Virus record (IMG/VR): IMGVR_UViG_3300034236_000061
Coordinates: 1 to 47,568 of that record
Strand: one strand, 5' to 3'
From: a virus
Length of the DNA: 47,568 nucleotides
Both the position numbers and the translations under genes were made by a program. Under the pieces are notes generated by a model. That model saw only the letters and a list, made by a program, of their open reading frames with translations, had not been told where the DNA came from and did no database searches. Positions 4,237 to 20,849 of the stretch are shown piece after piece (position 1 is the first letter of the stretch; every line of letters begins with the position of its first letter).

Positions 4237-4485
4237 TTAGCGGTGTTTGTTGCGCGTCATTTTCGAGATTCTGAGACGGTTCGATTTGCGCCGACGCGAA
4301 GCGCCGTTCGAGCGATACGGAACTCTGAACGAATGCGCGCCGCCGTACGCCAGATGCGGAAACATTCCTTTAAGGTCGTCGAGGGAAAGCCGGTAACCGG
4401 CGGGCGCACGATACAGCGGTGAAAGTTGTGAAGCGAAAAGAAACGGAAAAAGAGCTCTGAAAAAATTAACGAAGCGTTTGAACAT
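4237..4485 (-). CDS. Small basic protein of the tail operon
   Basis: 82 residues with a hydrophobic N-terminus (MFKRFVNFFRALFPFLFASQL) and a strongly basic C-terminus (RSNGASRRRKSNRLRISK). An AAGGAA element about 12 bases upstream and the 4-base gap to the next gene support it as real. No family recognised. It could be a short membrane-associated tail accessory protein. Confidence 0.5.
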   Translation of the reverse strand: MFKRFVNFFRALFPFLFASQLSPLYRAPAGYRLSLDDLKGMFPHLAYGGAHSFRVPYRSNGASRRRKSNRLRISKMTRNKHR

Positions 4486-4513
4486 TTTCTTGAAAATTCC
4501 TTTTTTGTGATTT

Positions 4514-4924
4514 TTAAGCGGTCATAAAGCGCAGCGTGATGCCCTTGATCCGGTCGTTGATAAACGAGTCAAAAGCGAAAGGCTGCGGCAGAACCGGCTC
4601 TGCCGAAACGGTAAAGTCTCCGGCGTCTCCGGCGGCTGCAATTTCAATTGTGTCGGAATTTTCCAAAGCGGTGATGATGAGCGATTTCACGTCTTCCCAG
4701 ACGTCCGCCGTCAGGACGTTGATTTTGATTTCAAACGGGATTCCTTTGTCGGATTCGAGTATTTGCGTGACGGGCGTGCCGTCGGCTGCCGGAATGGTTA
4801 CGCCCGTGAATGGAAGCATTAAAGCGGCGGCGTTCGTTACTTGCAGTTTGCAGGCGTCGCCCATCGCCGTGCCGTCCGAGGTGAGATAAATCGAATCGAG
4901 TTGAATTCCGTAAAATCGCGACAT
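4514..4924 (-). CDS. Tail structural protein of unknown type
   Basis: 136 residues, soluble, acidic and beta-rich (FYGIQLDSIYLTSDG, DAGDFTVSAEPVLPQPF, ITLRFMTA). It sits between the frameshifting chaperone and the fibre genes, where distal tail or tube-extension proteins often lie. I do not recognise the family. Confidence 0.55.
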   Translation of the reverse strand: MSRFYGIQLDSIYLTSDGTAMGDACKLQVTNAAALMLPFTGVTIPAADGTPVTQILESDKGIPFEIKINVLTADVWEDVKSLIITALENSDTIEIAAAGDAGDFTVSAEPVLPQPFAFDSFINDRIKGITLRFMTA

Positions 4925-4930
4925 AGTAAT

Positions 4931-5149
4931 TTATTCCTGGCTCGTCAAATGAAACTCGCCGCAAAAATTCACGCACGGGTAAACAAAGAACGGCTTATCG
5001 TAAACAGACGAAAAATAATCCGCATACCACAAAGCACAAAGCTCCGACGGATACGAGCGTTTGCGCGAGCACGAGCGTTGGCGTCGATATTCATCATTGG
5101 TTTTCGGGCTTCTTTTTGTTGAATCTTTCGATTCTCTCGATTCTGGCAC
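4931..5149 (-). CDS. Possible small tail-operon protein, start uncertain
   Basis: 72 residues from a GTG. The C-terminal half (YPSELCALWYADYFSSVYDK...) has a protein-like composition rich in aromatic residues. The first third overlaps the end of the frameshifted chaperone, so the true start may lie further in. A competing frame begins at an ATGATGA overlapping the chaperone extension stop at 5094-5096 and encodes a basic 41-42 residue peptide. I cannot decide between them. Confidence 0.3.
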   Translation of the reverse strand: MPESRESKDSTKRSPKTNDEYRRQRSCSRKRSYPSELCALWYADYFSSVYDKPFFVYPCVNFCGEFHLTSQE

Positions 5150-5848: not shown

Positions 5849-5932
5849 TAAAAAAAATTCTCCTTTTGAGGTTGTTGAGTGACCGATATTAGACAGCGTC
5901 GGTCAAGCGCCGTTTCACCTACCCAGATGAAA

Positions 5933-7240: not shown

Positions 7241-7248
7241 AAGTTTGA

Positions 7249-7276
7249 GGTAAATGGTAAGAGGTAAGAGGTGAGG
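7249..7276. repeat. Four tandem heptanucleotides upstream of the tail tube gene
   Basis: GGTAAAT GGTAAGA GGTAAGA GGTGAGG in + orientation, ending 8 bases from the tube gene ATG. The rest of the gap up to 7418 shows no convincing gene on either strand. Confidence 0.7.
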
Positions 7277-7418
7277 ACTAAAAAACGAATCGGCGCGCCG
7301 CAGAGCATCATCAGCCGAAAAGATAACTGCTTCCGGTTATGTCACGAGGAGAAAGATGAGTAAAAAACCCCGTTCGGCTTCTCTCCGGAAGCGCGCGCCG
7401 AATTTTGAAAGAACTTGA

Positions 7419-7598
7419 CTATTTATCGACGATTGGCACATTTTCAAAAGCAAATGCGCGCGCCGCGCGGCGAACTGCCCGACGAGCGCCGGAACGGGTT
7501 TTGTAGCCTTCGCCGCCGTCCGCGATTTTGCGTCCGTTGCGAGCTTTTAAGTGCCAGCGAAACTCGCCGGCTGAATCTTCGAAAATTACAACTTTCAT
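7419..7598 (-). CDS. DUF1508 / YegP-like small protein
   Basis: 59 residues. The sequence MKVVIFEDSAGEFRWHLKAR followed by NGRKIADGGEGYKTRSGARRAVRRA fits the short DUF1508 (UPF0339) domain: F-x-D-x-x-G-x-x-R-W-x-L-K-A-x-N-G, then GEGYxxR. Its ATG overlaps the stop of the preceding gene (TAATG), so it belongs to the tail operon. The domain's role is unknown; finding one among tail genes is uncommon. Confidence 0.75.
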   Translation of the reverse strand: MKVVIFEDSAGEFRWHLKARNGRKIADGGEGYKTRSGARRAVRRAARAFAFENVPIVDK

Positions 7599-7804
7599 TA
7601 TCTTTGGCGGACCGGTTTATAGAGCTCCGGGAAAAGACGAACAATCGTTTTCGCGTTCGGGTGATAAAACGGCTTTGACTGCGCGTTCGCCGTCGGCAAA
7701 ACAATAACGGTTTCGCCGTTGGTAATTGAAAGAATCGGCTCTCTGCCGTCTTTTTTTCCGACGAAGGCGATATTCGATTGAGGTGAGGACTTTTCAGGTT
7801 TCAT
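7598..7804 (-). CDS. Small conserved-looking phage protein
   Basis: 68 residues with a beta-hairpin-like core (GREPILSITNGETVIVLPTANAQSK) and an HPNAKTIVRLFPELYKPV tail. It lies between the tail terminator and the DUF1508 gene and overlaps the latter by TAATG. No family recognised; a capsid or tail accessory role is likely from position. Confidence 0.5.
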   Translation of the reverse strand: MKPEKSSPQSNIAFVGKKDGREPILSITNGETVIVLPTANAQSKPFYHPNAKTIVRLFPELYKPVRQR

Positions 7805-7813
7805 AAAGAGCGT

Positions 7814-8308
7814 TTAAGTGATTTCCACTTTGATTTGCAAATCGACGTAATAACCTTCGACGTCCGTCAGCGGGTCATCTCCGAGAATTATAAAATTATT
7901 CTGTTTGAGCGGTAGGTGTTCGCAATTTTCGGCGAGCGTGCGGTTCTTTTGCAGGAACTTATTCCTGAGATTGATGACGAGCCTTTTGAGGTCTTTCTGC
8001 GGCGTCGAGCCGTCCGACCGCGCCGGCTTGTATTGCCACATCAAATGAGCGTTGTAAACCAGAAACACGACCGGATTATCATCGCAGCCGTCGGTCGTCG
8101 AATCTTCGAAGCTCTGAAAGGTCAGATAGCAGTACTTGATTTCCGTTTCGTCGTCCGAGTTCTGCACCGTCAGCCGGTCGAGCACGTCGTGTTTCGAATC
8201 GGTATAAAAATCGTCCGTGACGATATTGTCGATGCCTTCGATGGCGGCGAGCTTCGCCGCCAGAGCGTCGAGAATTTCCTGTTCTTTTTCGGGCGTGAGA
8301 TTAGGCAT
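7814..8308 (-). CDS. Probable tail terminator / tail completion protein
   Basis: 164 residues, alpha/beta. An N-terminal helix (MPNLTPEKEQEILDALAAKLAAI) is followed by strands and the C-terminal YYVDLQIKVEIT. Size, acidic character and place after the gp10-like gene and before the tube gene match tail terminator (gpU-like) proteins that cap the tube at the head end. Assignment by context, not by a motif. Confidence 0.55.
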   Translation of the reverse strand: MPNLTPEKEQEILDALAAKLAAIEGIDNIVTDDFYTDSKHDVLDRLTVQNSDDETEIKYCYLTFQSFEDSTTDGCDDNPVVFLVYNAHLMWQYKPARSDGSTPQKDLKRLVINLRNKFLQKNRTLAENCEHLPLKQNNFIILGDDPLTDVEGYYVDLQIKVEIT

Positions 8309-8314
8309 CGATAT

Positions 8315-8455
8315 TTATTCGCCGGCGTCGCGAATAGACTTTAATAATTCACTGACAACAAATCGCGCAAATCGAAACAGTTGGCTGACTACAAATCCGG
8401 CGAAAATTAAAAATGCTATAACGACAACGGCTTCCTGAGTGGTTAATTTTTCCAT
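8315..8455 (-). CDS. 46-residue single-span membrane protein
   Basis: One hydrophobic span (AVVVIAFLIFAGFVVSQLF, residues 9-27) then a basic amphipathic tail. The start overlaps the stop of the connector gene (TGATG), so it is translated from the same message. No family known. Membrane micro-proteins inside head-tail operons have no standard role. Confidence 0.55.
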   Translation of the reverse strand: MEKLTTQEAVVVIAFLIFAGFVVSQLFRFARFVVSELLKSIRDAGE

Positions 8456-9051
8456 CAGATTTCAAACTCCCTGCGCTTGTAGCGGTCTAAAATTTCCTTC
8501 GCCAAGGGCGGCATCGCGCGCTCGACGACAAACCCGCCCGGCGTGATTTGCCCGAGCGTGCCTTTCTGCGTCTCCCAGACGCGCAAAACCGTCAGGCGGA
8601 CGGCTTCGGCTAAATCGAGCGGCGTCACCGCATAGCCCCATCGAGCGGTGATTTTGAAAACGGCATTTGCAGTCCAGCGCCGGCACTCGAAAGGCAAATC
8701 GGAAAAGCTGCTTTCGTTCCCGAATTCTTCCGTCTCGAAATAAAGCCAGCCGTTTTTCTCGGACTCGTAAATCGAAGTAGAAAGCGATTCAAAGGAATTG
8801 CCGTTAATTTCGGTAATCGAATCGAAGACGTGAACCGGCAGGCGCAGGAAATGCTCGCCTTCGCCGCGCACGCGCTTCATCGAAGGCTCAGCCGGCGACG
8901 GCGAAAAATAACCCGGCGTCCGCTTTGTATAAGTGTCGACAAACACGGAAACGCTGTCTAAAATGCGTCCAATCGCATCTTTTTCAGCGTTCGATTTTGC
9001 CTCGGGAATGAAATCGGCAATGAGTAAATCTTTGTCTGCGTATCTTGCCAT
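8455..9051 (-). CDS. Head-tail connector (gp6-like adaptor)
   Basis: 198 residues. The N-terminus MARYADKDLLIADF, a WTANAVFKITARWGYA segment near the middle and the C-terminal LAKEILDRYKRREF are typical of the adaptor that docks on the portal ring (HK97 gp6 / SPP1 gp15 class). The order connector, gp10-like, terminator, tube is conserved in siphophages. Its ATG overlaps the gp10-like stop. Confidence 0.65.
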   Translation of the reverse strand: MARYADKDLLIADFIPEAKSNAEKDAIGRILDSVSVFVDTYTKRTPGYFSPSPAEPSMKRVRGEGEHFLRLPVHVFDSITEINGNSFESLSTSIYESEKNGWLYFETEEFGNESSFSDLPFECRRWTANAVFKITARWGYAVTPLDLAEAVRLTVLRVWETQKGTLGQITPGGFVVERAMPPLAKEILDRYKRREFEI

Positions 9052-9566
9052 CAGGAATTTTCCTTTATCGTGTCCGAAAGATTCTGCTTAAATTTTTCCT
9101 TGAATTTTTCGACGGTCGATTTAAAAAAAGGACGGTCGAGCTTTTCCGGATTGTCGAGCAGTTCACCGTAACCCTTGCCGTTGGCGACGGTCGCGCGCCC
9201 TTCGCCCGTTTTCTGCGCCCTGGTCGCGTTGACCAAAGCGCCGGTGTCGGGAGCCGGGCTTTCGCCCTTTTTACTGGCGCGGTGAAAACCGAATCCGACG
9301 ACGAATCTTTCATCCGTCAAACTTTTAAAAACCCGTTTAAAGCGCGAGCTGGTTTTTTCACCGCGATAAAAGCCGCGATTTTTCGCCGCCGCTTTTTTCA
9401 GAATCCGTCCGCGGCGATAGGTTCTGCCGGTTTTAGGTCCCTTGAGAATCGCCTGCTTTATTTCGCTTTCGAGTTCCAGCGCGCTTTGCTGCACCGTTTT
9501 GTCCAGCAGCGCCCGCCTCTCCGGCGTTTTCCACAGAGGACTGTTGAGAATCAGATTCGATTTCAT
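9051..9566 (-). CDS. HK97 gp10-like tail completion protein
   Basis: 171 residues from the ATG at 9566; an in-frame start 11 codons upstream is less likely. An N-terminal helical region (LLDKTVQQSALELESEIKQAILKGPKTGRTYRRG) and a C-terminal YGELLDNPEKLDRPFFKSTVEKFKEKF with Pro-Phe-Phe are hallmarks of the gp10 family, which sits at the head-tail joint. It overlaps the previous gene by about 130 bases in another frame. Confidence 0.65.
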   Translation of the reverse strand: MKSNLILNSPLWKTPERRALLDKTVQQSALELESEIKQAILKGPKTGRTYRRGRILKKAAAKNRGFYRGEKTSSRFKRVFKSLTDERFVVGFGFHRASKKGESPAPDTGALVNATRAQKTGEGRATVANGKGYGELLDNPEKLDRPFFKSTVEKFKEKFKQNLSDTIKENS

Positions 9567-9684
9567 CGTTAGGATTGAAGCCTTCCGGCAGCTGCTCAAA
9601 TTCGCCGCTTTTCGACATCATTTTGAACTCTGCGCTCGATTCGTCGGCTTCAAATAATTGTTCGTCGTTTCGTCTAAACCACAT
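9433..9684 (-). CDS. Small acidic protein overlapping the gp10-like gene
   Basis: 83 residues. The first 42 (MWFRRNDEQLFEADESSAEF onward to LPEGFNPNDE) look like genuine protein. The remaining 41 overlap the gp10-like gene and are Ala/Gly/Gln-rich. The overlap is long for a phage; either both frames are used or the gene once ended sooner. Heptad DNA repeats sit directly upstream of its ATG. Confidence 0.5.
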   Translation of the reverse strand: MWFRRNDEQLFEADESSAEFKMMSKSGEFEQLPEGFNPNDEIESDSQQSSVENAGEAGAAGQNGAAKRAGTRKRNKAGDSQGT

Positions 9685-9693
9685 AAAATTTAA

Positions 9694-9760
9694 GTGAAAA
9701 GTGATAAGTGATAAATGATAAATAGCAGGAAAAATCCCTATTCACTTATCACTTATCACT
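9694..9760. repeat. Heptanucleotide tandem repeat inside a long hairpin
   Basis: Four heptamers (GTGAAAA GTGATAA GTGATAA ATGATAA) end about 9 bases from the ATG at 9684. The downstream half, TTATCACTTATCACT at 9746-9760, is the exact complement of 9700-9714, giving a 15-bp stem that could act as a terminator or stability element in the minus-strand message. Confidence 0.65.
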
Positions 9761-9772
9761 GTTTGTTAAAGG

Positions 9773-10162
9773 TTAGATTTGCCGGGGCAGACGATACACG
9801 CGAACCGAAGCCGCGGGCGAACCGGTTGCCGCCTGGAACTGAACGTCAATCGAGCCGTCCGCTTTGACGAAGCGAGCCGATTCAAAAGGTCCAATCATTC
9901 TGCTTGCCGTCGCGCCGCCTCCGGAGGCTGCCAGAGCAACCGCCAAATCGCGCGCCGTGTGAGCGACTGCCGAAGTTCCGGCTTTCACGGTGACGGTCAG
10001 AGCTGCGTCGTCGGTGTTGACGACTTCGATGAGCAGGCGATCCGTGAGCGAGTTCGCCGGAAGATTAATCGTTCCGTTGGTATCGACGCTTTGCGCCGTC
10101 GGCAGGCTGACGGCAGCGTTCGCCGATAATTCGTTGATAGTGAGACTTACAGGATTAGCCAT
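9773..10162 (-). CDS. Probable head decoration or capsid-associated beta protein
   Basis: 129 residues from the ATG encoding MANPVSLTINELSANAAVSL; the longer upstream reading has no better start. The protein is almost entirely short Ala/Thr/Val strands with LLIEVVNTDDAALTVTVKAG and ends SVRVYRLPRQI, like small beta-sandwich decoration proteins. It follows a displaced coat-gene 3' end and its terminator, so in the ancestral layout it came directly after the coat gene. Confidence 0.5.
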   Translation of the reverse strand: MANPVSLTINELSANAAVSLPTAQSVDTNGTINLPANSLTDRLLIEVVNTDDAALTVTVKAGTSAVAHTARDLAVALAASGGGATASRMIGPFESARFVKADGSIDVQFQAATGSPAASVRVYRLPRQI

Positions 10163-10261
10163 AATTTTTAGTTCTGAATGAAAATTTAAATGTGAGGCGA
10201 GAGGAATATCGTTTTCATTAACAAAGATACGAACTCTCGCCATATGCAAATGAAAAATTCA

Positions 10262-10281
10262 GGGCGGAGAGCGTCCGCCCC
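10262..10281 (-). terminator. Hairpin after the displaced coat-gene end
   Basis: GGGCGGA and TCCGCCC flank a 5-6 base loop a few bases after the TAG of the coat-gene fragment; TGAATTTTTC follows in the minus direction. It fits a native terminator of the ancestral coat gene. Confidence 0.55.
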
Positions 10282-10286
10282 GTTAA

Positions 10287-10364
10287 CTAGCTTTTGTTAC
10301 CGGTCAAGACAGCCCAGGCGTAAGGTCTGATGAGCTTTCCGCCGTAAACGTGAAGTCCGATTGA
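10287..10364 (-). pseudogene. Displaced 3' end of a major coat protein gene
   Basis: In one frame this stretch encodes GLHVYGGKLIRPYAWA followed by VLTGNKS and TAG, identical in all 23 residues to the end of the intact coat protein at 16902. About 16 of the 23 codons differ, all synonymously (for example GGA CTT CAC GTT TAC against GGC TTG CAC GTG TAT). Similarity stops abruptly upstream and there is no start. It is the remnant of a second, diverged coat gene. Confidence 0.85.
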
Positions 10365-10468
10365 CTTGCAACAATTCCGTTTTTGGATTTTCAAAGGTGA
10401 TTTGGAGACGTTATTTCGCATCCATTTAGAATTTATCAGAAATAAAATTAGCGGTAAGGTATGCCGAT

Positions 10469-10732
10469 TTAATGAACGATTTGCCGTTTATCCGTGACTT
10501 GGTTCGGCGGCGTTTCTTCGGATTGATTCAGAATCGAATTTCCGACTGCCGACAGATTTTTCACTGATTCAAAAAGCGTCATAGCGTTATTGCGGCAATA
10601 TTCGATTTGCTCTGCGCTCAAATCATTTTCGCTTTCTAGCTGATTTTTAATGATGTTTCCGACGCTCAAAAGTGCTTCGGATTCGATTAGAAGCAGAGAT
10701 AAAAAAGTCTGAGATTTCTTTTTGATTGACAT
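10469..10732 (-). CDS. Small helical protein after the tape measure gene
   Basis: 87 residues, mostly helix (FLSLLLIESEALLSVGNIIKNQL; LSAEQIEYCRNNAMTLFESVKNL). It starts 10 bases after the tape measure stop, so it is co-transcribed. No family recognised; it may be an assembly partner. Confidence 0.5.
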   Translation of the reverse strand: MSIKKKSQTFLSLLLIESEALLSVGNIIKNQLESENDLSAEQIEYCRNNAMTLFESVKNLSAVGNSILNQSEETPPNQVTDKRQIVH

Positions 10733-10742
10733 AGATTACCTG

Positions 10743-12965
10743 TTAAAAATTCGGTTCATAGTATTCTTGTGTGTGTCGCGGCGTCGGCGTTTTGACCGAG
10801 CGAGACCGCACGTCCGCTTTGCCGTTCGATTCGTCGATAATTCGGATGACGCCCTGCAATCCTTCTTTTTCCGCTATTTCTTTTAATTTATCCAAGCTTT
10901 CGGCGATTCGGTTTTGCAGTGCAATTTGTTTTTTACGGTCTGCGGTTGCGTCCTGCTCGTATCGCTCGATGCGGACGGCATCGCGTTCTCTGGCTGCCGC
11001 AAACTTTTCGCGCAAATCGTAAGTTAACTGGCTAGGATTTAAACCCGACGAAAGAGCGATTAATTTTTTATCATTAATCGCCTGTTCGTTTTCGCTCAAA
11101 AACCCTTTGCCCTGTATCAGTGAAATTTGTCTCTGCAAGCGGTCTTGAAGCCGCAGGTCGGAATCATCTTGTTTTTGCAGGCTTTGGATATAACTTTGCT
11201 TTTCAAAATCGGATAAATCGCCGAATGTGCGCTGGCGAACCGAAAAGCCGCCAAAGCCGCCGTCTTTATTTGAAACGCGGTCGTAAGCGTTCAGTAAATC
11301 GTTGCGCGCGTCGGATTGAGAAAAACCGTTGGTAAATAATTTATCCGAGCCGTCCGCGTTTTTGCCGTTGGCGAATATATTTGAATGGTAACGGGTGAAC
11401 GGGTCGTTTTCCGATTGTGAAAACCCCAGAAAGCCTTTGCCGTCCGGCGTGAAAGAAGCGTTAAAGTTTTTGCCGCCGCGCCCTTTTTCGATTTGCTTGA
11501 GTCCGGCTTGAATGAAATCATCAAAGAACTTAGTCGGGTCTTCGATTTTAAACTCCGGCTTTTGATAATTTCTTAAATCCTTTGCCTGTTCGCGCAAGTC
11601 GAAAACGCCTAAATTATTATCAATTCGCGCCTCGTACAATTTCAGCGCGTTTTGATTTTTTTGCATCGTTTCAAAAGTAGAAATCAAATCCGCAGACAAG
11701 CCTTTCGTATTTTCCCGCAAAGTTTTTAAGGCTTTATCGCCGTCACTGAAAATTGAAACAAGCGGATTATTCGCGCCTTGTTTTTGATAAAGATTATCTA
11801 AAACGTCAGTGTAAGTTTTACCGAGTTCTCTGACTTTCGCTTTGCCTTTTTCGATTGATTCATTCTGTTGCTTTAGCCGTCTCTGCTCTGCTTCCCTTGC
11901 ATCGTCTTGTGATTTGGCGTAGCTTTTCCAGCGATTATCAAAAGCTTCGTTCGATGCGCGAATTTTATTCTGCTGAGACGAATCAATTTGAGCGTCAAGG
12001 GTAAGAAGCTGTCGGGAAAGTTTCTCGAAATCTTCGTTCGGTTTGGAAATCACTTTACCGTTTTCTATGACCGGCAGAGTAGCGGGCGTCAGGTTTTTAA
12101 GCTGTTCCAGATTGGCGCGACGGCGCGTAAGGGCTTCAATCGAGCCAGCATCCAAAAACCGTTCAAACGTGCGTAGTTCGGCGGCTTCCTCGCGCATTTT
12201 TTGCAGATTTTTTAATCCTTCTTTCTGCGATAAGATTTGATTATTGATTGCGCCTTGAATTTGAAATTCAACCTGTAAACGGCGTTCGGCTTCATTGCGA
12301 ATGTTTTCCGTCACTTTGACGATTCCGTATCCGGCGACGGCAACCGCGCCGAAAATGCCGAGCGAAGTCATCGAGAGAGCGTTGACGGCAAGCATCCCTC
12401 TACTAACGGCATTATAAGCGCGGTTTAAACCTTCCGGCGCGAAATCGTCGGTTAATTCCAAAGTGGTCGCTTGAAAGTCCGTAATACGCCCGCGCTTTCC
12501 GCTTTTGCCGGAAATACCTTTTGCGGTTGATGAATTAGCCGAAGGCAGTGCGCTTAGTTTTCTGTTTAAATTATCGGCTTCTTTTTCGGCGGCGCGGAGT
12601 TCGTCGGTCAAAAAAGCGATTGACGATTTTCGATTCGGGTTAAGTAACTCTTTTCTGATATTGGAAATATCATTTTGAAGCTGTCGCGCCCGTTCGGAAG
12701 TCCTGACTATCTCTCTCGTTAAGCCGCCGACATTTCCAGCGTCGAGGCGAGTAGCGGTAATCTGTTGAAACTGCTTCCGCGTTTCGGCAGCTTTTTTTTC
12801 GAGCCTGTCCAAATCAATAAAATTCTCGTTCGGGATTTTGAATTTTATGTTCGGCTGTATTTTTTCGGCATCGCGGGCAAAGTCCTGCAAACGCTGTTTA
12901 TTTTTGCCGATAACAACTTCGGCTTTATCATCTAAAAAAACCAATTCGACGGTAAGAACATCCAT
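10743..12965 (-). CDS. Tape-measure-like tail protein
   Basis: 740 residues from the ATG encoding MDVLTVELVFLDDKAEVVIG. The frame opens 15 codons earlier, but that ATG lies inside a terminator loop. Long charged coiled coil (about 25-150), then a glycine/alanine hydrophobic stretch (about 190-215, LGIFGAVAVAGYGIV), then further coiled coil (NQILSQKEGLKNLQKMREEAAELRTFERFL) to the end. This pattern and size suit a short tape measure that sets tail length and contacts the membrane at injection. It lies just after the coat gene instead of after the frameshifting chaperone; no other candidate exists in the window. Confidence 0.65.
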   Translation of the reverse strand: MDVLTVELVFLDDKAEVVIGKNKQRLQDFARDAEKIQPNIKFKIPNENFIDLDRLEKKAAETRKQFQQITATRLDAGNVGGLTREIVRTSERARQLQNDISNIRKELLNPNRKSSIAFLTDELRAAEKEADNLNRKLSALPSANSSTAKGISGKSGKRGRITDFQATTLELTDDFAPEGLNRAYNAVSRGMLAVNALSMTSLGIFGAVAVAGYGIVKVTENIRNEAERRLQVEFQIQGAINNQILSQKEGLKNLQKMREEAAELRTFERFLDAGSIEALTRRRANLEQLKNLTPATLPVIENGKVISKPNEDFEKLSRQLLTLDAQIDSSQQNKIRASNEAFDNRWKSYAKSQDDAREAEQRRLKQQNESIEKGKAKVRELGKTYTDVLDNLYQKQGANNPLVSIFSDGDKALKTLRENTKGLSADLISTFETMQKNQNALKLYEARIDNNLGVFDLREQAKDLRNYQKPEFKIEDPTKFFDDFIQAGLKQIEKGRGGKNFNASFTPDGKGFLGFSQSENDPFTRYHSNIFANGKNADGSDKLFTNGFSQSDARNDLLNAYDRVSNKDGGFGGFSVRQRTFGDLSDFEKQSYIQSLQKQDDSDLRLQDRLQRQISLIQGKGFLSENEQAINDKKLIALSSGLNPSQLTYDLREKFAAARERDAVRIERYEQDATADRKKQIALQNRIAESLDKLKEIAEKEGLQGVIRIIDESNGKADVRSRSVKTPTPRHTQEYYEPNF

Positions 12966-12997
12966 AATAATTGAGGTTAAAAGGTGAGAAAATAAAG

Positions 12998-13024
12998 AAA
13001 GGTTTGGCATTTCACCAAACCTTT
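12998..13024 (-). terminator. Terminator ahead of the tape measure gene
   Basis: Perfect 10-bp stem AAAGGTTTGG / CCAAACCTTT with a 7-base loop, followed by CTTTATTTT in the minus direction. It separates the fibre-like gene from the tape measure gene. Confidence 0.7.
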
Positions 13025-13060
13025 AAAGTTTACAGTTTTAAACGAAAGCGGTAACTAAAG

Positions 13061-13849
13061 CTAAATTTCGATGTATTCCAGATACGAGCCAGCCAGAATA
13101 TTCGTCTGGTCGGCGCTGGAAGTGCCTTGCGCGAACTGAAAAGCGAACGTGCCGCCACCCGCGCCGCAACGAACCGTTATTTTATATTCAATAAATCCGA
13201 GCGGGCTGGCGCTTAAACTTTGATTCGTCGGCAAGGTGGAAAAATCGGCAATCGTCGTCGCGCTGGACGGCGCGAAGTTCGCCGCGCCGGTTCTCTGCTC
13301 GCCGCAGACTAAAGTAACGGCTGGCGCGGCGAGTCCGAATTTTATATTCGGCGTTGCGCTCGCCGTGTAGATGAACGCTAAAAGACGAATGACGTAAGTT
13401 TTATTAGCCGCTATCGGAAAATGCAATTCAGCGTCATTTGATAAAACCGTGTTGCTTACTCGCTGTTCGTCAGCCGTTTTCTTAACGGTCGTCCACGCGC
13501 CCGCGCCGCCAGCCGTTTCGCCGTCGTCAACTGAAAGATTGAGCGTAATAGGGCTGGAAATACTGCCGCTGACGAGATTCAAAAGAATTTCGTCGCCTTT
13601 GGTAAGTTCAACGTCCAAGCCAGTGATTGAGCCTATGCGCGAACCGGCATTAACCGTCACGCCCGCGCCCGCGATTTCCACGCCGTTTAAATGCAAATTA
13701 AAAATCGCGTTCGCGCCCGAAACGCTTTCATCGGTCATTACGTCAACCGCTTTGAGAGTTCCGTTTTTTAAGATTGGTAAGTAAATAACGCCGCTTTTCG
13801 CGCCGCTAAGATTTCTGCCTTCGTAAAGTTTGGTAAGTTCGTTAATCAT
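13061..13849 (-). CDS. Fibre-like protein sharing its N-domain with the distal fibre
   Basis: 262 residues. Residues 1-114 match those of 2841-3824 at about 70 percent with no gaps. The C-terminal ~145 residues are unrelated: an Ala/Thr-rich beta domain (NKTYVIRLLAFIYTASATPNIKFGL; YKITVRCGAGGGTFAFQFAQGTSS). The shared N-domain probably anchors both proteins to the particle. Strong hairpins flank the gene on both sides, so it may be a separately expressed cassette. Confidence 0.6.
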   Translation of the reverse strand: MINELTKLYEGRNLSGAKSGVIYLPILKNGTLKAVDVMTDESVSGANAIFNLHLNGVEIAGAGVTVNAGSRIGSITGLDVELTKGDEILLNLVSGSISSPITLNLSVDDGETAGGAGAWTTVKKTADEQRVSNTVLSNDAELHFPIAANKTYVIRLLAFIYTASATPNIKFGLAAPAVTLVCGEQRTGAANFAPSSATTIADFSTLPTNQSLSASPLGFIEYKITVRCGAGGGTFAFQFAQGTSSADQTNILAGSYLEYIEI

Positions 13850-13851
13850 AA

Positions 13852-13887
13852 CTAAAAAGACTTGGTGAAAATTCCAAGTCTTTTTAG
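13852..13887. terminator. Bidirectional terminator upstream of the fibre-like gene
   Basis: 14-bp perfect stem CTAAAAAGACTTGG / CCAAGTCTTTTTAG with an 8-base loop and T-rich arms on both strands. Confidence 0.75.
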
Positions 13888-13913
13888 TGTATAGATTTAT
13901 TTGGTAGCGGTGA

Positions 13914-14156
13914 TTACTTCAATTCTTCTACGCCTAAAAAGCGTTTAAATTCGTAGTCTTCCTGTGCCTGCCTGCGCTTTTTTTCAGAATTTCTTCGCCC
14001 TTCTTGGTCAGATAAAATTTGCTGATTACCGGCGGCGGTAATCGTTTCTTCATCTTTTAAATGTTTTTCCTCTTTTTTACGAATATTATTCGTAACAATT
14101 CCCGTTATAAAAAACGCGCATAGGGCAATCGGCAGAATTATTTTTAGAGATTTCAT
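13914..14156 (-). CDS. Membrane-anchored peptide resembling the tape measure protein
   Basis: 80 residues. Residues 5-24 (KIILPIALCAFFITGIVTNN) form one membrane span or uncleaved signal. The rest aligns with tape measure residues ~213-280: GIVTNNIRKKEEKHL against GIVKVTENIRNEAERRL, then NQQILSDQEG against NNQILSQKEG, and FKRFLGVEEL against FERFLDAGSIEAL. Both copies therefore carry a hydrophobic span followed by the same charged helix. It is either a fragment of a duplicated tape measure or a standalone mimic. It has its own ATG, stop and downstream terminator. Confidence 0.65.
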   Translation of the reverse strand: MKSLKIILPIALCAFFITGIVTNNIRKKEEKHLKDEETITAAGNQQILSDQEGRRNSEKKRRQAQEDYEFKRFLGVEELK

Positions 14157-14252
14157 TTTGATTCGGTTTTCCTTTTCGGTAGGTTGAGAATAGCCGAATT
14201 AATGATAGCAAAGGGTGGGAATGTTTTTCAACAAGTTTTAAACAGTGTGGAT

Positions 14253-14927
14253 TTATTGAACGCTTGCCCTGCGCTTTCCGTTTTTTATCCTTGAAACCAA
14301 ACTTTCACGAACATTAAAATCGGTCGCTATTTTTCTTCCTGTTTCGCCGTTTTGCAATCGCCGTTTAATTTCCCTCACTTGGTTGTCGGTTAATTTGGCT
14401 TGGTGATTTTTTTCGCCAGTTTGGGCTAATGCCTTATTTTTACGATGTTCTTCGGATTGTTTTCTGCCTTTTAGCTTTTCCCCGTTTTCCGACATTCTAG
14501 CCGAAAACTCAGGCGTTACTTTTCTGTTTTTCCAGATATTGGCGCGATGTTCTGCGGATTTTTTCCTGCCTTTCAATCCAGCCGAAACTTTAGCTTTTTG
14601 TTCGTCGGAAAAACGATAACCCAAAATGCTTTTCGCGGTCGGGCTTAAATTGTAGCCGATATTTTTTTGAAAGCAGTTTGTCTTATCGAGCCAGAACTGC
14701 TCGCGCTCAATTAATAAATCAATATCGGAAACGTATTCTAAAATCTGAAAGCCAAAAGCCGCCGCGCCGTATTTATTCCACGCGGCTTGCAGAAACTTAT
14801 TATTGTGAATTTGTTTGTTTAACTGCCTTTTATGTTCGGTAAAACGGCGCGTTAAATAGACCGCCGAGCCGATGTATAACTTGCCGCTTTTAGTATTTAA
14901 AATTTGATATATTCCAGACTTTTCCAT
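14253..14927 (-). CDS. GIY-YIG homing endonuclease with NUMOD3 and HTH
   Basis: 224 residues. The catalytic domain opens with GIY at 5-7 and YIG at 18-20, with Arg27/28 and the EH pair at 31-32. Two NUMOD3-type DNA-binding repeats follow (GYRFSDEQKAKVSAGLKGRK and a later GRKQSEEHRKNKA). A C-terminal helix-turn-helix (LTDNQVREIKRRLQNGETGR, NVRESLVSRIKNGKR) completes the usual free-standing homing endonuclease layout. Such enzymes cut one specific site and spread their own DNA by repair. Base composition here is more AT-rich than in the tail genes. Confidence 0.9.
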   Translation of the reverse strand: MEKSGIYQILNTKSGKLYIGSAVYLTRRFTEHKRQLNKQIHNNKFLQAAWNKYGAAAFGFQILEYVSDIDLLIEREQFWLDKTNCFQKNIGYNLSPTAKSILGYRFSDEQKAKVSAGLKGRKKSAEHRANIWKNRKVTPEFSARMSENGEKLKGRKQSEEHRKNKALAQTGEKNHQAKLTDNQVREIKRRLQNGETGRKIATDFNVRESLVSRIKNGKRRASVQ

Positions 14928-14999
14928 TTTACCGCCTATTAAATATAAACGACTAAAACAAGAGTTTTTCCAATGTTGTCAACGGTTTAACACTTATTT

Positions 15000-15191
15000 T
15001 CAGTATCTATTTTCTACTGTTTTTAACGCTTGTTTGAACTCGGAAAAATTAACTTTTCCGTCGCGCACCCGAACGAAAAGCCGCGCCAGTTCCAAAGATT
15101 CGACGTTTGCCGATTTTGCGCGCCTTTCCGTAATCCATTTTTTGCGGCAATCGGCGCAAGTATAATTTTTATGACATTTCGGACAACTCAT
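15000..15191 (-). CDS. Small zinc-ribbon protein
   Basis: 63 residues with MSCPKCHKNYTCADCRKKW (two CxxC pairs, residues 3-15), then a helical tail SLELARLFVRVRDGKVNFSEFKQALK. The tail resembles the C-terminus of the next gene upstream (AELAKVFMQVREKEIGFFHFKQKVA), so the two may have arisen by duplication. The genes overlap by 4 bases. Function unknown. Confidence 0.6.
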   Translation of the reverse strand: MSCPKCHKNYTCADCRKKWITERRAKSANVESLELARLFVRVRDGKVNFSEFKQALKTVENRY

Positions 15192-15499
15192 TTTTTTATC
15201 GCTACCTTTTGTTTGAAGTGAAAAAAACCGATTTCCTTTTCTCGCACCTGCATAAAAACCTTTGCTAGTTCCGCGTCTTTCGGGCTGTAGCCGATTAAGG
15301 AATTTTCCGCTTGCGTTTCAAGCCGGATTTCTTCTAAAATCTGTTCGGCGCGTTCTTTGGTCTGAGGCTCGCACAATCGCCAGATTTGATGTTGTTTACC
15401 TTTGACCGTCACGGATTTTCGAACGTATAGCTTTTGCTTATGCGCGTCGAAAACCGTGTAAGGAAACGCGCCTTTCGTGTAATTCGTCTTTTTCTTCAT
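15188..15499 (-). CDS. Small basic protein resembling an arm-type DNA-binding domain
   Basis: 103 residues. The N-terminal half (FPYTVFDAHKQKLYVRKSVTVKGK, then ERAEQILEEIRLE) follows the three-strand plus helix pattern of AP2-like integrase arm-binding domains, here without a catalytic part. The C-terminal half shares a helix with the neighbouring zinc-ribbon protein. DNA binding is a guess from pattern. Confidence 0.55.
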   Translation of the reverse strand: MKKKTNYTKGAFPYTVFDAHKQKLYVRKSVTVKGKQHQIWRLCEPQTKERAEQILEEIRLETQAENSLIGYSPKDAELAKVFMQVREKEIGFFHFKQKVAIKK

Positions 15500-15580
15500 A
15501 AATTTAAGTGAGGCGTTTCCGTCTTAATTTTTCGTCAGACCTACCGCGCCTCTTTTTTCGCCTTTTGCCAGTGCGAAAAC

Positions 15581-15745
15581 TTAACCCTGATTTTCTTCCG
15601 ATTCCGCCAGAATCGCGTCTAAAAAGCGGTTGGTTATTTCCAGTAAATAGTCGAATTTAATTTTCTTTTCGGGCGAAAGATTCTCGTAATTATCTAAAAG
15701 AATCCTGAATTTCCGGCGGAGTTTTTCCAGTTTTTCTTCATCCAT
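15581..15745 (-). CDS. 54-residue helical protein
   Basis: ATGGATGA overlap with the upstream gene's stop couples the two. The product is two charged helices (EEKLEKLRRKFRILLDNYENL; KIKFDYLLEITNRFLDAILAESEE). No family recognised. Confidence 0.55.
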   Translation of the reverse strand: MDEEKLEKLRRKFRILLDNYENLSPEKKIKFDYLLEITNRFLDAILAESEENQG

Positions 15746-15938
15746 TTGCGCCCCCACGTTTTTTATTCTCGAAATGGAAAGCGGCGCGTTTTAAAATTTC
15801 CGCGTCAGACAAAGAGAGAACGGGCGAAACGGTTTTGATTTTCGGTTCGCTCAATTCGCCGAAAAGCAAGGTCAATATAAAATTGACCCGTGCAAGAAAT
15901 GAATGGAATTTAGTTTTGATTCGTTGTATATTTTTCAT
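15738..15938 (-). CDS. 66-residue small protein with a hydrophobic patch
   Basis: Basic N-terminus and a short hydrophobic stretch (ARVNFILTLLFGEL), then LSLSDAEILKRAAFHFENKK. It precedes and overlaps the 54-residue gene. Unknown function. Confidence 0.45.
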   Translation of the reverse strand: MKNIQRIKTKFHSFLARVNFILTLLFGELSEPKIKTVSPVLSLSDAEILKRAAFHFENKKRGGANG

Positions 15939-15971
15939 TGGTTGATTCCTTATTTTTAAGGGATTAAAGAG

Positions 15972-16004
15972 AGGCTTTCCTAGCTTTGCGGTTTAGGAAA
16001 GCCT
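15972..16004 (-). terminator. Strong hairpin between small genes
   Basis: 11-bp stem AGGCTTTCCTA / TAGGAAAGCCT with an 11-base loop. The run after it is CTCTCTTTAA, so it may attenuate rather than stop transcription. Confidence 0.5.
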
Positions 16005-16011
16005 TTCGTTT

Positions 16012-16209
16012 TTAGTTGCAGTCGGGGCAAAATTCCGCGCCTTGCGCGAATGACCAGCCGCGCCGCGTCAATTCGGTTTTCGTGCCGTCTGCCGAATTTG
16101 AGCAGCAATCACAAAAAACGCTCTGCGTCATTTCAAAAGTGGTTATCTGGAAACCCGCGCCCTGCGCGTTTTGGGTTTCGGTCGTAATCGTTAAAGTTTC
16201 TGCTAACAT
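16012..16209 (-). CDS. Small zinc-ribbon protein
   Basis: 65 residues: an N-terminal strand region and two Cys pairs (CDCC near 33-36 and CPDC near 61-64) separated by about 25 residues, the spacing of a zinc ribbon. Divergent from the regulator at 16364 and sharing its operator region. Function unknown. Confidence 0.55.
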   Translation of the reverse strand: MLAETLTITTETQNAQGAGFQITTFEMTQSVFCDCCSNSADGTKTELTRRGWSFAQGAEFCPDCN

Positions 16210-16253
16210 TTTTAATCTCCGTTTGTTTATTACTGACTGACAAGATTAATTAT

Positions 16254-16358
16254 ACAATACTAAAAGTAGATTTACAATACTTTTAGTAGATTATTAATAC
16301 AATAAGTAGACAAATTCTACTTTTAGTTGGAACACAGGTATTTATTGATGTATATTAT
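16254..16358. promoter_or_regulatory. Divergent promoter with repeated operator
   Basis: AT-rich. ACAATA starts at 16254, 16274 and 16299, each followed by (C/T)N0-7AGTAGA. CTAAAAGTAGA at 16260-16270 is mirrored by TCTACTTTTAG at 16316-16326. TTGGAA (16327) and TATATT (16351) are spaced 18 bases and would place a start near the GTG at 16364, so that message may be leaderless. Confidence 0.5.
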
Positions 16359-16363
16359 TTGGA

Positions 16364-16555
16364 GTGGAAGCGAAAGAGTTTAAAAGAAAAAGAATCAGCT
16401 TAGGATTAACGCAAACGGAATTAGCGGAAATGCTGGACGTTAAACCGAATACTATTTCACGCTATGAAACGGGTTTGCTATCTGTATCAAGAACGGTAGA
16501 GTTAGCACTTGAAGCGATTGAAAATAAGCTAAAGAAAGAGAAAGAAACTTTGTAG
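16364..16555 (+). CDS. XRE-family HTH repressor
   Basis: 63 residues from GTG. RKRISLGLTQTELAEMLDVK and NTISRYETG form a classic Cro/CI helix-turn-helix. It opposes the phage operon and lies just behind repeated operator-like sites. With the next gene it forms a second regulatory module, separate from the lysogeny switch at 40.4-41.7 kb. It is likely autoregulatory. Confidence 0.8.
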   Translation: MEAKEFKRKRISLGLTQTELAEMLDVKPNTISRYETGLLSVSRTVELALEAIENKLKKEKETL

Positions 16556-16558
16556 GGT

Positions 16559-16762
16559 ATGAAAGTCAGAATCCGTGAAGTAGCCGAATCAAAAGGCATA
16601 AAATCAGCCCGACAACTTCAAAAAGCGACGGGCGTTGGGCTGGCGACGGCGGCGAAATGGTTTCAGAACGACTTAATTTCAATCAGGATTGATTCTCTGA
16701 ATTTGCTTTGCAACAAACTCAAATGCACTCCGAGCGATTTATTAGTTTCGGAAAAAGTATAA
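16559..16762 (+). CDS. Small HTH regulator, paralogue of the gene at 31043
   Basis: 67 residues starting 4 bases after the preceding stop. MKVRIREVAESKGIKSARQL and LNLLCNKLKCTPSDLL match the layout of 31043-31258 (MITVRIQEIAGKFNIRNAYQL; LNTLCNLFECTPNDLL), the short Cro-like HTH group. Two copies in one prophage suggest that this block came from a second, related element. Confidence 0.75.
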   Translation: MKVRIREVAESKGIKSARQLQKATGVGLATAAKWFQNDLISIRIDSLNLLCNKLKCTPSDLLVSEKV

Positions 16763-16829
16763 AGATAATTACTCGACAACCTACCTTTACTAACCCGTTT
16801 TTATTTTTTAGCTAATGGAAAATACAAAA

Positions 16830-16866
16830 GGAATGAGGCTTGCCGTAAACGTGCAAGCCTCATTCC
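16830..16866. terminator. Coat-gene terminator built from coat-like sequence
   Basis: Perfect 14-bp stem GGAATGAGGCTTGC / GCAAGCCTCATTCC with a 9-base loop, then TTTTGTATTTT on the minus strand. The arm and loop read GGCTTGCACGTTTACGG on the minus strand, which encodes GLHVY as in the coat protein's last residues, so the hairpin may be a scar of an older coat-gene end. Confidence 0.75.
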
Positions 16867-16901
16867 TTAATCTGCCTTTGAAAAATCCTGAATGATAAGA
16901 A

Positions 16902-17750
16902 CTACGATTTGTTGCCTGTCAGGACTGCCCAAGCATACGGACGGATTAATTTACCCCCATACACGTGCAAGCCTTTTATAGCGTCCGCGAAACGAGCTTC
17001 AGGGCGATAAGCTTCGATTTTGACGATTTGCTCCGCGAAGGTATAAGCCATCGGGTGACCCGCGATGATTTTGTATTTCGTCGCGGAGGTGTGCGGCGTG
17101 TTGTTGGAAACGTAAATATCCATTCCCGCAGCGCGTCCGATTTTGCCGTTACGAATTACATTGTCCGACGTGCTGGTTCCCGCCGCGACGAAACGGTCGT
17201 CTTTGAGCAGCAAGCCTTCGCACCACGCCGGGATGATGGCAAAACGCCCTTCCTCCGGCACATTGGCTTCAGTTAATTTGACTTTCAAATCAACCAGGTA
17301 ATCATAAAGATTGTCTTTCGTCAGCACGATGGGCGTCGTGTCGTCGCCGATCAGATTCGACACCGGCACGAGAACGTGATTCGCGGCGATGAAAATATCG
17401 GACTTGTCGCGCAGACCGTAGCCGGCGCGGTTCATTGCTTCCGCCATCACGTTGGCGTTCGCCTGGACTTTATCAACGTCGTCAACGGCAAAATTGAAAT
17501 ATTTGCCTTCGGTGATGTTGAGCATCTGCCCGGCGTCGTCTAATTCGTCCGGTCCGTCGATGTTACTGTTTTTGGTGTAATCCTTAATAGTGATGTCGCC
17601 GACCGAATTGATTTTGACCGAATCGCCTTTGTCGCGGATTTCGCCTTCGTACTCGCGGTTGCAAACGGCAGGGCTGCCGAAGATGTGGAATTTTTCGAGC
17701 GCTTTCAAGATTTTGACGCTCCAAACGGTAGGAATGAAATTGTTAATCAT
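16902..17750 (-). CDS. Major coat protein, P22 gp5-like HK97 fold
   Basis: 282 residues. MINNFIPTVWSVKILKALEK, then GDSVKINSVGDITIKDYTKN, AMNRAGYGLRDKSD and PMAYTFAEQIVKIEAYRPE are typical of the P22-type coat group. It follows the scaffold gene, and a terminator ends it. Its last 23 residues are duplicated with other codons at 10287-10364. The 3' end here uses AT-richer codons (GGT AAA TTA) than the displaced copy. Confidence 0.85.
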   Translation of the reverse strand: MINNFIPTVWSVKILKALEKFHIFGSPAVCNREYEGEIRDKGDSVKINSVGDITIKDYTKNSNIDGPDELDDAGQMLNITEGKYFNFAVDDVDKVQANANVMAEAMNRAGYGLRDKSDIFIAANHVLVPVSNLIGDDTTPIVLTKDNLYDYLVDLKVKLTEANVPEEGRFAIIPAWCEGLLLKDDRFVAAGTSTSDNVIRNGKIGRAAGMDIYVSNNTPHTSATKYKIIAGHPMAYTFAEQIVKIEAYRPEARFADAIKGLHVYGGKLIRPYAWAVLTGNKS

Positions 17751-19222: not shown

Positions 19223-20527
19223 TTATACCGCGCCGAACTCGCACAAATATTTCAAGTTGATTTGTGACGTGTCGTAAACGATTGCCTCGTGATTCATCAC
19301 GCCGCATGTTCCGGCTTCCACCCAGGTCGAATCGAAGCCTTTGCGCGGAAAGCTTCCCGTCCGGTTTTTCGGTTCGTTCATTTTGCCGAGCGCGCATTCG
19401 GTCAAAAACATAAACGTCCGCTGATTTCTCGCGCCCGAGCCGTTCCAAAAATCCGTCGCGTAATTTAACGCTTTCGTCGATTGAACGCTCGTATAAATTC
19501 CGTCGCCGAACATTCTGCCCGTGCAGTGAGAAGCGCTGGATTTCGGAATCATCAAACCGCTTTTCAAAATGCTCAAAAGATTCGAGGCTTTCGTGCCGTG
19601 CCATAAATCGGCGCGGACGTTGCCGATTTTCGCCGCCGCCAAATCGAAATTCTGTTTCATATCTTCGATTTCGACTTCGTAAACGCGAACCAGTTTCAAA
19701 CTCGATGTGTTATGAAAACCGTTTTTCGACGATTCATACTGTTTTTTGATGCGGCGGAAAACGGCGCGTCCCTCGTCGGTCGTGTGCGGAACGATGGACA
19801 ATTTACACTTGAAGATTTTATCGCTTTTCAAGTCCGGCGAGCTGGTCGTTAAAGCCGCGTCGAGCGCGTCGAGAATCGAGCCTTGCGCGGAGATTTTATC
19901 CGCCGTGTCTAAAAGCTGGCTGCTGGGCGGAATGCGAGCGCCGAAGTCCGCCGGTACGAGGCGAAAATAATCACAAATCAATTTATGGCGCGCGCCGCTC
20001 GTTAAACCGTTTGAATTTTCGCTTTCGATGCTCGTCAGCAGCTGGCGGGCTTTGGCGACGGCTTCGGGCGTCAAGACGCCGAGCGGCGTCGAAAACGCGC
20101 CGGTTGCCGCGTTGTACTTGATGCTCGTCGAATGCGTGATTTGATGAATATTGACCTCAGCCAAATATTTGATTAAATCGGCGGTCGTCGCGCATAATGC
20201 GCCGTCGCCGAGAATTTGCTCGACGGCGAGGCGCGATAATTCCTGCGGTCGGTTGTTCGTGATAACGATTTCAGTTTCCGCGCCGCCCAGCACGGAAGTA
20301 TCTTCATAACCTTTTCTGAGCTTTTCGCCGCGTTTGCTTTCGAGATAAGCAACTGCCGCCGCCGATGAGGAAAGCTGTTTTTTACTGACGGCGAGGTTTG
20401 CGCCTTCCCGGACGCGTCCGTATTGAGCCTCGAATAATCCGTTATCGTGCGCCGAGCCGATCCAGACTTTATTTGAATTTTCGCCCGCGTCGAAGTAATT
20501 CATTTTGTATTGCTTGATAACTGTCAT
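19223..20527 (-). CDS. WGR-domain poly(ADP-ribose) polymerase (PARP) encoded by the phage
   Basis: 434 residues from the ATG with AAAGGAA upstream. A longer frame only reflects overlap with the previous gene. WGR domain at ~5-85 (W22; G37-R38 in YGRVREG). Helical regulatory-type region ~95-270, with DLIKYLAEVN and TPLGVLTPEAVAKARQLL resembling the PARP1-3 regulatory domain. ADP-ribosyltransferase domain ~275-434 with the full H-Y-E triad: H310 (LWHGTK), Y345 (FGDGIYTS), E414 (NHEAIVYD), then SQINLKYL. It should split NAD+ and add ADP-ribose, possibly chains, perhaps stimulated by DNA ends through WGR. Target unknown; no macrodomain or glycohydrolase is nearby. The setting inside the head operon suggests late expression. 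Confidence 0.93.
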   Translation of the reverse strand: MTVIKQYKMNYFDAGENSNKVWIGSAHDNGLFEAQYGRVREGANLAVSKKQLSSSAAAVAYLESKRGEKLRKGYEDTSVLGGAETEIVITNNRPQELSRLAVEQILGDGALCATTADLIKYLAEVNIHQITHSTSIKYNAATGAFSTPLGVLTPEAVAKARQLLTSIESENSNGLTSGARHKLICDYFRLVPADFGARIPPSSQLLDTADKISAQGSILDALDAALTTSSPDLKSDKIFKCKLSIVPHTTDEGRAVFRRIKKQYESSKNGFHNTSSLKLVRVYEVEIEDMKQNFDLAAAKIGNVRADLWHGTKASNLLSILKSGLMIPKSSASHCTGRMFGDGIYTSVQSTKALNYATDFWNGSGARNQRTFMFLTECALGKMNEPKNRTGSFPRKGFDSTWVEAGTCGVMNHEAIVYDTSQINLKYLCEFGAV

Positions 20528-20559
20528 ATCGAAAAATATTCCTTTCTTAAAAAAGTTAA

Positions 20560-20579
20560 GGGCGCTTCTTAAAGCGCCC
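20560..20579 (-). terminator. Hairpin ahead of the PARP gene
   Basis: GGGCGCTT / AAGCGCCC stem with a 4-base loop, followed on the minus strand by TTAACTTTTTT. It would limit read-through from the upstream Cys protein into the PARP gene. Confidence 0.65.
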
Positions 20580-20606
20580 CTGTCAGCCTGTCTATTAGTG
20601 TCCGTC

Positions 20607-20849
20607 TTAGTTGAATGCTTCGCGGTCGTGGCATTCCCTGTGACAGTTTCCGGTCTCGGAAGGCTCGCCGCACAATTCGCAAATAACTTCCAAGTAACCG
20701 GTGTGGTCAATTTTAAAATCTGAAAACCAGTCGATTTCGGTTTCGTCCGCGTCTTCAAAGTAAGCCGCCATTTGCGCTTCGGCTTCGGCGTCCGCGTCCT
20801 GCAGCATTTCGCAAATTTCTTCGTGATAATAGGATTTCGTTAAGCTCAT
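20607..20849 (-). CDS. Small acidic Cys-motif protein of the PARP cluster
   Basis: 80 residues from the ATG behind GGAG. Acidic helical N-terminus (EEICEMLQDADAEAEAQMAAYF) and a C-terminal CELCGEPSETGNCHREC motif (C-x2-C-x8-C-x3-C), suited to one zinc ion. It lies between the SWIM and PARP genes and is likely a partner. Not recognised. Confidence 0.6.
   Translation of the reverse strand: MSLTKSYYHEEICEMLQDADAEAEAQMAAYFEDADETEIDWFSDFKIDHTGYLEVICELCGEPSETGNCHRECHDREAFN

Follow-up and report, generated by a model that had tools for sequence, protein, structure and literature searches.

How can the 3′ end of one phage gene stand twice in a genome, encoding the same residues with different codons, on the two sides of a 6.5-kb block? 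The question is raised by the major coat gene of IMG/VR virus record IMGVR_UViG_3300034236_000061, a prophage-like genome of which positions 1 to 47,568 were analysed (47,568 nt; hereafter, the window). The record is derived from a metagenome and not from an isolate, and the arrangement is known from one occupied site. On the late (minus) strand the order is terminase, portal, Mu-F-like gene, cargo region, scaffold, coat (16902-17750), a block of 6543 bp, a 72-bp repeat of the coat end (10287-10358), a decoration-like gene, and the neck and tail genes. An earlier note on this DNA had proposed that some 6.5 kb had been inserted together with its own coat 3′ end, displacing the original one. Uninterrupted relatives and the identities of the two ends bear this out. 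We further consider it marginally probable that this foreign block entered coat codon 260 by one-sided break repair driven by a GIY-YIG endonuclease, the repair bringing the replacement end with it.

Two coat ends with one protein sequence

The coat gene and its two ends are as follows.

16902..17750, minus strand: major coat gene, intact and hybrid, of 282 aa (match to phrog_267, major head protein, at E=5e-71)
16902..16973, minus strand: recoded coat 3′ end of imported origin, 23 residues and stop; 31% nucleotide divergence from the native fragment and from L003 alike, protein as in the fragment
10287..10358, minus strand: native coat 3′ end, displaced, 24 codons without an upstream gene; its DNA is 86% identical to that of the L003 coat end, 91% over a stretch of 64 nt, with no difference in the first 18 nt

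Both 10287-10358 and 16902-16973, read on the minus strand, encode GLHVYGGKLIRPYAWAVLTGNKS followed by a stop codon, which confirms the earlier observation that the 23 terminal residues are shared. The synonymy of the codon differences between them also stands, with the count of about 16 of 23 corrected: 17 of the 23 sense codons differ, accounting for 22 of 72 nt and no nonsynonymous change. The distance from the coat stop to the fragment is 6543 bp. When 211 loci were compared with themselves, the pair in the window was alone in repeating a C-terminus on the same strand with identical protein (100% aa) at low DNA identity (69% nt).

The displaced end is the native one

The coat protein of a 7.7-kb contig, L003, is 90% identical to that of the window, and its gene is directly followed by the decoration gene. 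The fragment differs from the L003 coat end at 10 of 72 nt (86% identity) and the intact coat end at 22 of 72 (69%); codons 1-254 of the intact gene differ at 79 of 762 nt (90%). Because L003 is far closer to the fragment than to the intact end, although codons 1-254 match L003, it is well supported by these alignments that the stranded fragment is the original coat end and that the end of the intact gene is an import. The transition is located as follows.

16974..17048: left crossover zone; within these coat codons, 235-259, the DNA becomes less similar to L003 (change-point test)

The fall in similarity lies within codons 235-252, before the insertion point (codon 260), and only 1 of 2000 codon shuffles was as extreme. 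Therefore, about 10-25 codons upstream of the insertion point were probably exchanged too. The coat gene is a hybrid, of the L003 lineage from codon 1 up to about codons 235-254 and imported in its 3′ end.

In its silent sites, the imported end is nearer to two other relatives, L232 (17/72 differences) and L093 (18/72), than to the native end (22/72) or L003. Such distances speak for mosaicism independent of any nuclease: two related phages or prophages would have recombined by one crossover in the conserved coat 3′ region and one illegitimate join, importing the coat end, a regulatory cassette and the tape-measure gene, with the GIY-YIG gene as a passenger. We regard this as a serious possibility, somewhat short of probable. 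The protein sequences argue against it. The intact end and the fragment are protein-identical, and every other pair of lineages shows at least 3 nonsynonymous differences. A random donor at such an average silent distance is expected to differ at about 3-4 residues and none differ, which gives P about 0.015 for a lucky match, a rough value from non-independent lineage pairs that serves as a guide only. Foreign silent sites combined with matching residues would be the pattern left by strong protein constraint or by selection after the import.

Insertion at a single point

The site as it appears on the downstream side is given by two features.

9773..10165, minus strand: decoration-like gene, directly after the coat gene in relatives (phrog_24894; gene order of relatives)
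10358..10359: right junction, where the block meets native coat codon 260 without shared bases immediately upstream (junction comparison)

As the earlier note had observed, the decoration gene, identified by its phrog_24894 match, adjoins the fragment and not the intact coat gene. Coat followed directly by decoration gene is the arrangement in L003, L093, L221, L226 and L232-L235, and none of about 180 coat loci with enough downstream sequence has a comparable insertion after the coat gene, the largest gap before the next gene being 742 bp. The insertion thus lies in the 3′ part of an essential gene and is absent from relatives. Nuclease-free relatives also lack the duplication, the opposite of what the earlier note had named as a refutation, in a comparison that involves a single occupied site.

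Upstream of the fragment, identity ends abruptly (11 of 40 nt, common suffix 0). No microhomology was found at the right junction, and the longest word common to the two junction regions is 12 nt. Both boundaries of the block map to one recipient point, and on this ground the event is to be read as an insertion and not as a swap. The retention of the native coat end excludes a simple two-sided homologous exchange. A break at the shared point also fits better than the two independent crossovers that nuclease-independent mosaicism calls for. One side of the block has homology, the coat gene, and an exchanged tract; the other side has no homology. By analogy, this asymmetry would be the signature of one-sided double-strand-break repair. 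One-sided, illegitimate repair of double-strand breaks with co-conversion is documented for intron homing in phage T4 (PMC2988022).

A separate observation concerns the same gene junction in another relative. In L222 (G030:C17), positions 1-1375 hold an AT-rich insert with a DUF262/GmrS-like gene, a resemblance judged by eye and not by family search, on the opposite strand and directly upstream of the decoration gene. The insert lies at the start of the contig, and the G030 coat gene was not found in the assembly. As a possible second occupant, it gives only a hint that the coat/decoration junction has been used more than once.

Contents of the block and a third copy of the junction motif

From the coat side, the block consists of a strong terminator-like hairpin, two plus-strand helix-turn-helix (HTH) genes, an operator-like array, an operon of small open reading frames (ORFs), the GIY-YIG gene, an 80-aa ORF, a 262-aa protein, the tape-measure gene and an 87-aa ORF. 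Apart from the nuclease and tape-measure features, which are listed further below, its parts are these.

16842..16859, minus strand: third copy of the junction motif, GGCTTGCACGTTTACGGC (codes GLHVYG), in a terminator-like hairpin at 16828-16868 (motif search, hairpin z=-6.3)
16559..16762, plus strand: HTH_26 (Cro/C1-type) regulator (E=4e-11)
16364..16555, plus strand: HTH_3 repressor-like gene (E=9e-11)
16243..16330: candidate operator array separating the divergent gene sets, 3 copies at 20-bp spacing with inverted CTAAAAGTAGA-type arms (repeat analysis)
15000..16209, minus strand: small ORFs of the divergent operon (65, 66, 58, 103 and 63 aa), without assigned family (ORF list, family searches)
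13061..13849, minus strand: 262-aa protein whose N-terminal ~118 aa share 72% identity with a tail gene of the phage itself, 2841-3824 (sequence comparison)
10469..10732, minus strand: 87-aa ORF of unassigned function between the tape measure and the junction (ORF list)

The composition of the block is foreign and AT-richer. Third-position GC content (GC3) is 0.33-0.56 in most block genes (0.48 in the tape measure, 0.59 in one 65-aa ORF); most native late genes have values of 0.58-0.72, the chaperone 0.45. A foreign composition would also be expected under the nuclease-independent mosaic explanation. No intron family was found by an Rfam search at E<=1 and the coat frame is continuous without splicing, so a group I intron or other RNA element was rejected. 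Integrase-type att insertion was rejected as well, with no integrase recognised in the block and its two ends only 69% identical in DNA. Replication and packaging-diversion genes were likewise not recognised among the block genes, and the small ORFs gave no PADLOC match for a defence function beyond generic HTH. In viral contigs searched with the nuclease, its leader, the tape measure and the 103-aa ORF, neither a second copy of the block nor a donor was found, and no close relatives appeared except for the leader in L003. The 103-aa ORF is also absent from 162 genomes of the class.

GLHVYG are the residues at the coat insertion point. With up to 1 mismatch allowed, the motif coding for them occurs 3 times in the window, where 0.02 matches are expected, and the 3 copies lie on one strand. 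This count and the self-comparison of the 211 loci exclude a chance repeat as the source of the coat-end and motif copies. The third copy is 1 mismatch away from the L232 coat gene and 3 from each of the other two copies in the window. Its gapped alignment with the native end reaches further, with a score matched by 0 of 5000 shuffles. Since one part of the match (GGCTTG) is common to other hairpins in these genomes, we grade the third copy as a probable scar of an earlier event at the same site and not as proof of one.

The GIY-YIG nuclease

The nuclease gene and its leader occupy the following positions.

14253..14927, minus strand: GIY-YIG homing endonuclease with I-TevI-like catalytic domain, weak NUMOD3 and C-terminal HTH (PF01541 E=8e-11; I-TevI catalytic-domain structures E=1e-14)
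14931..15000, minus strand: leader/promoter of the GIY-YIG gene, with 81% identity to the one that precedes an L003 nuclease gene of unrelated appearance (sequence comparison)

The endonuclease gene that the earlier note had placed in the block is real by both the PF01541 and the I-TevI structure matches, and the protein has counterparts of I-TevI R27 and E75, i.e., intact catalytic positions. That this enzyme drove the import is plausible. The nuclease gene of L003 (3908-4917) and that of the window have no evident homology and share the 70-nt leader at 81% identity, suggesting that the nuclease was swapped while the leader stayed. Nuclease cassettes thus appear to be exchanged among these phages, because different nuclease genes have a leader in common. 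Nuclease genes are common passengers in the late regions of these phages, which again suits mosaicism without a nuclease-driven step.

Relocation of the tape measure

Three features concern the tape-measure gene.

10743..13010, minus strand: tape-measure protein of 755 aa, without a second copy in the window and away from the usual position of the gene (homologue comparison)
13914..14156, minus strand: 80-aa ORF resembling an internal tape-measure segment (sequence comparison)
4924..5060, minus strand: vacated tape-measure site, where a small zinc-finger-like ORF passes directly into the tail gene that follows it, 4514-4924 (comparison with relatives)

The normal place of this gene, seen in L093 (with other cargo before it) and G030, is between the tail chaperone/zinc-finger ORF and p4514; G033, informative on the upstream side only, has its tape measure after the chaperone. 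The L093 homologue matches phrog_16823, tail length tape measure. At the normal place in the window no homologue is left, and the neighbouring genes are intact. The phage is now dependent on the block, which supplies the last residues of its coat protein and its only tape measure, because the resident tape measure is gone and the sole copy is in the block.

This relocation bears on three other explanations. Modules are mobile in this family, as the tape-measure/tail module of G067, moved upstream of the scaffold, illustrates, and this is a further point in favour of nuclease-independent mosaicism. A sole tape-measure gene out of place could equally be a symptom of a metagenome assembly chimera, in which reads of two related phages were joined in or near the coat gene, all the more as the record is not an isolate and conserved coat sequence is a plausible misjoin point. 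We consider such a chimera unlikely. The right junction has no sequence common to the native site and therefore no repeat for an assembler to follow; the tape measure is gone from its normal place in the same contig with its neighbours intact, for which a single false join is insufficient; and a third motif copy is present.

Finally, the block could be a parasite of the phage, a satellite-like unit that has a repressor/operator and a tape measure of its own and docked in the coat gene of its helper. It has a divergent regulatory region of its own with operator-like repeats, satellites with their own tape measure are known (PLE11, PMC12987554), and two satellite-like islands with tape-measure-like genes occur in the same bacterial family. 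We hold this to be very improbable, since no integrase, replication gene or small terminase was recognised in the block and its tape measure is closest to those of the ordinary phages G033 and L093 (50-56%), those of the islands being at about 28-34%.

How the block may have arrived

Under the explanation that we marginally favour, the nuclease-driven one, we infer the following course. A double-strand break would have been made in the coat 3′ end, probably by the I-TevI-like GIY-YIG enzyme of the block. The upstream coat end would then have invaded the coat gene of a donor phage and copied 10-25 codons together with the donor end and the block. On the far side, an illegitimate second join would have been made without homology. 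The replacement coat 3′ end and terminator carried by the block would restore the gene with exactly the same protein, leaving the original last 24 codons stranded 6.5 kb away. The recoded target codons would prevent recutting as well as recombination between the two ends, and later homing into uninterrupted coat genes could use the stranded native end as its right homology arm.

Several points weigh against this course. In its large size and its content of structural genes, the block departs from typical homing elements. The nuclease gene lies ~2 kb from the replacement end, unlike the adjoining position in fungal elements. No convincing C-terminal duplication was seen around GIY-YIG genes in 14 sampled phage loci, and there is a single occupied site, with no second copy of the block found in the searches. 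The break, the presumed target of the enzyme in the coat 3′ end and continued mobility are conjectural, and a plain mosaic event explains the locus almost equally well.

A more far-reaching proposal is that the block is the first phage example of a homing unit that replaces a gene end and has, in addition, acquired an essential structural gene. With the tape measure on board it would be an indispensable selfish insertion, and the third motif copy would be the scar of an earlier round. Such a unit could not be lost without killing the phage, because it supplies both the last residues of the coat and the only tape measure. We regard this proposal as doubtful. If the nuclease-driven course is true, it would provide a route for a selfish nuclease into essential coding sequence without intron or intein, a reason for selection of 'silent' recoding, and a case in which relocation of a module, the tape measure, was fixed by its attachment to such a unit. 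The locus would still be an unusually clean record of one-sided recombination within a capsid gene if it arose by plain mosaicism.

Host, relatives and other observations

Coat proteins 50-80% identical to that of the window are encoded by prophages in Pyrinomonadaceae and other Acidobacteriota, and the virus is one of soil-type (acidobacterial) bacteria. At 42337-42567 (plus strand), a tyrosine integrase is represented only by its last 76 residues, and for this reason the prophage may no longer be self-excising. In the cargo region, the gene at 19223-20758 (minus strand) combines a poly-ADP-ribose polymerase (PARP) catalytic domain with a PARP regulatory domain; its neighbours are a SWIM zinc-finger gene and a divergent HTH gene. 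Hairpins with a T-run are found shortly before start codons at 12999-13024, 13855-13885 and 15975-16010 of the window and also upstream of the tape measure in L093, G030 and G033. Before several genes of this phage family, such structures may attenuate transcription.

In L221 (G067:C12), the tail module (tape measure, p4514, p3831, fibre-like, p783) stands between the Mu-F-like and scaffold genes and not after the chaperone; host-like genes start soon after the chaperone. L225 (G082:C16) carries at 3595-13243 a 9.6-kb island in tRNA-Arg(TCG) with exact 47-bp end repeats. Its genes include tyrosine-integrase-like, excisionase-like, O-like replication, 714-aa tape-measure-like and small-terminase-like ones, and capsid, portal and large terminase were not recognised. 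Apparently, this island is a phage satellite of Acidobacteriota that brings a tape measure of its own, comparable to PLE11 (PMC12987554). A second satellite-like island, in L260 (G081:C12) at about 4042-13146, has primosomal-like, small terminase, 662-aa tape-measure-like and integrase-like genes, together with a tail-chaperone-like gene 28% identical to window 5468-5848; no capsid genes were recognised in it.

Comparison with known systems

Satellites such as PLE11 (PMC12987554) resemble the block as mobile units that bring an alternative tape-measure protein. Unlike them, the block has no recognised integrase, replication or packaging gene, and its tape measure is the only one of the phage. 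Assignment to the satellites, whether phage-inducible chromosomal islands (PICI), PICI-like elements (PLE) or capsid-forming PICI (cf-PICI), was rejected on the lack of recognised integrase, replication and packaging-diversion genes. Islands of homing endonuclease genes (HEG islands; PMC10448857) are comparable in that their nucleases are proposed to mobilise blocks containing essential phage genes. They exceed 10 kb, are flanked by nucleases and are exchanged as homologous modules, whereas the insertion described here left a remnant. We did not assign the block to HEG islands, given its 6.5 kb, one internal nuclease and no second copy in the searches.

The free-standing I-TevI/Seg-type homing endonucleases of phages (PMC2988022) share with the window enzyme the carriage by a phage and the combination of a GIY-YIG domain with a DNA-binding HTH, and one-sided co-conversion and illegitimate repair are documented for their homing. 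Unlike the window nuclease, they normally reside between intact genes without a duplicated gene end (0 of 14 sampled loci). No phage case of gene-end replacement was found in the open-access literature searched, which is weak evidence, as are the 14 sampled nuclease loci.

By analogy, the closest known case is that of the gene-hybrid-forming mobile endonuclease ORFs (mORFs) of fungal mitochondria (Allomyces atp6; Glomus atp6, atp9, cox2 and nad3; PMC3630166), and the parallel drawn in the earlier note is apt. The mORFs, like the block, are insertions in an essential gene that carry a homing-type endonuclease and supply an in-frame foreign replacement C-terminus. In both, the native C-terminus is retained downstream and is close to that of relatives, and the inserted end has diverged at silent sites while its protein stays the same or nearly so. 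For Glomus atp6, atp9, cox2 and nad3, native ends show 91-98% and inserted ends 64-81% DNA identity to a relative, with proteins 94-100% identical and the native end kept downstream (PMC3630166); the values of 86% and 69% in the window parallel this pattern. According to the same source, biochemical work has traced the mobility of the fungal gene hybrids to the endonuclease. Unlike the mORFs, the window case concerns a phage coat gene in a bacterial prophage and 6.5 kb instead of about 1 kb; its nuclease is 2 kb from the replacement end, regulators and a tape-measure gene have been added, and its mobility is presumed. If the insertion was nuclease-driven, gene-end-replacing homing elements would not be peculiar to fungal mitochondria and would occur in phages too, where the partners and the cut are directly testable.

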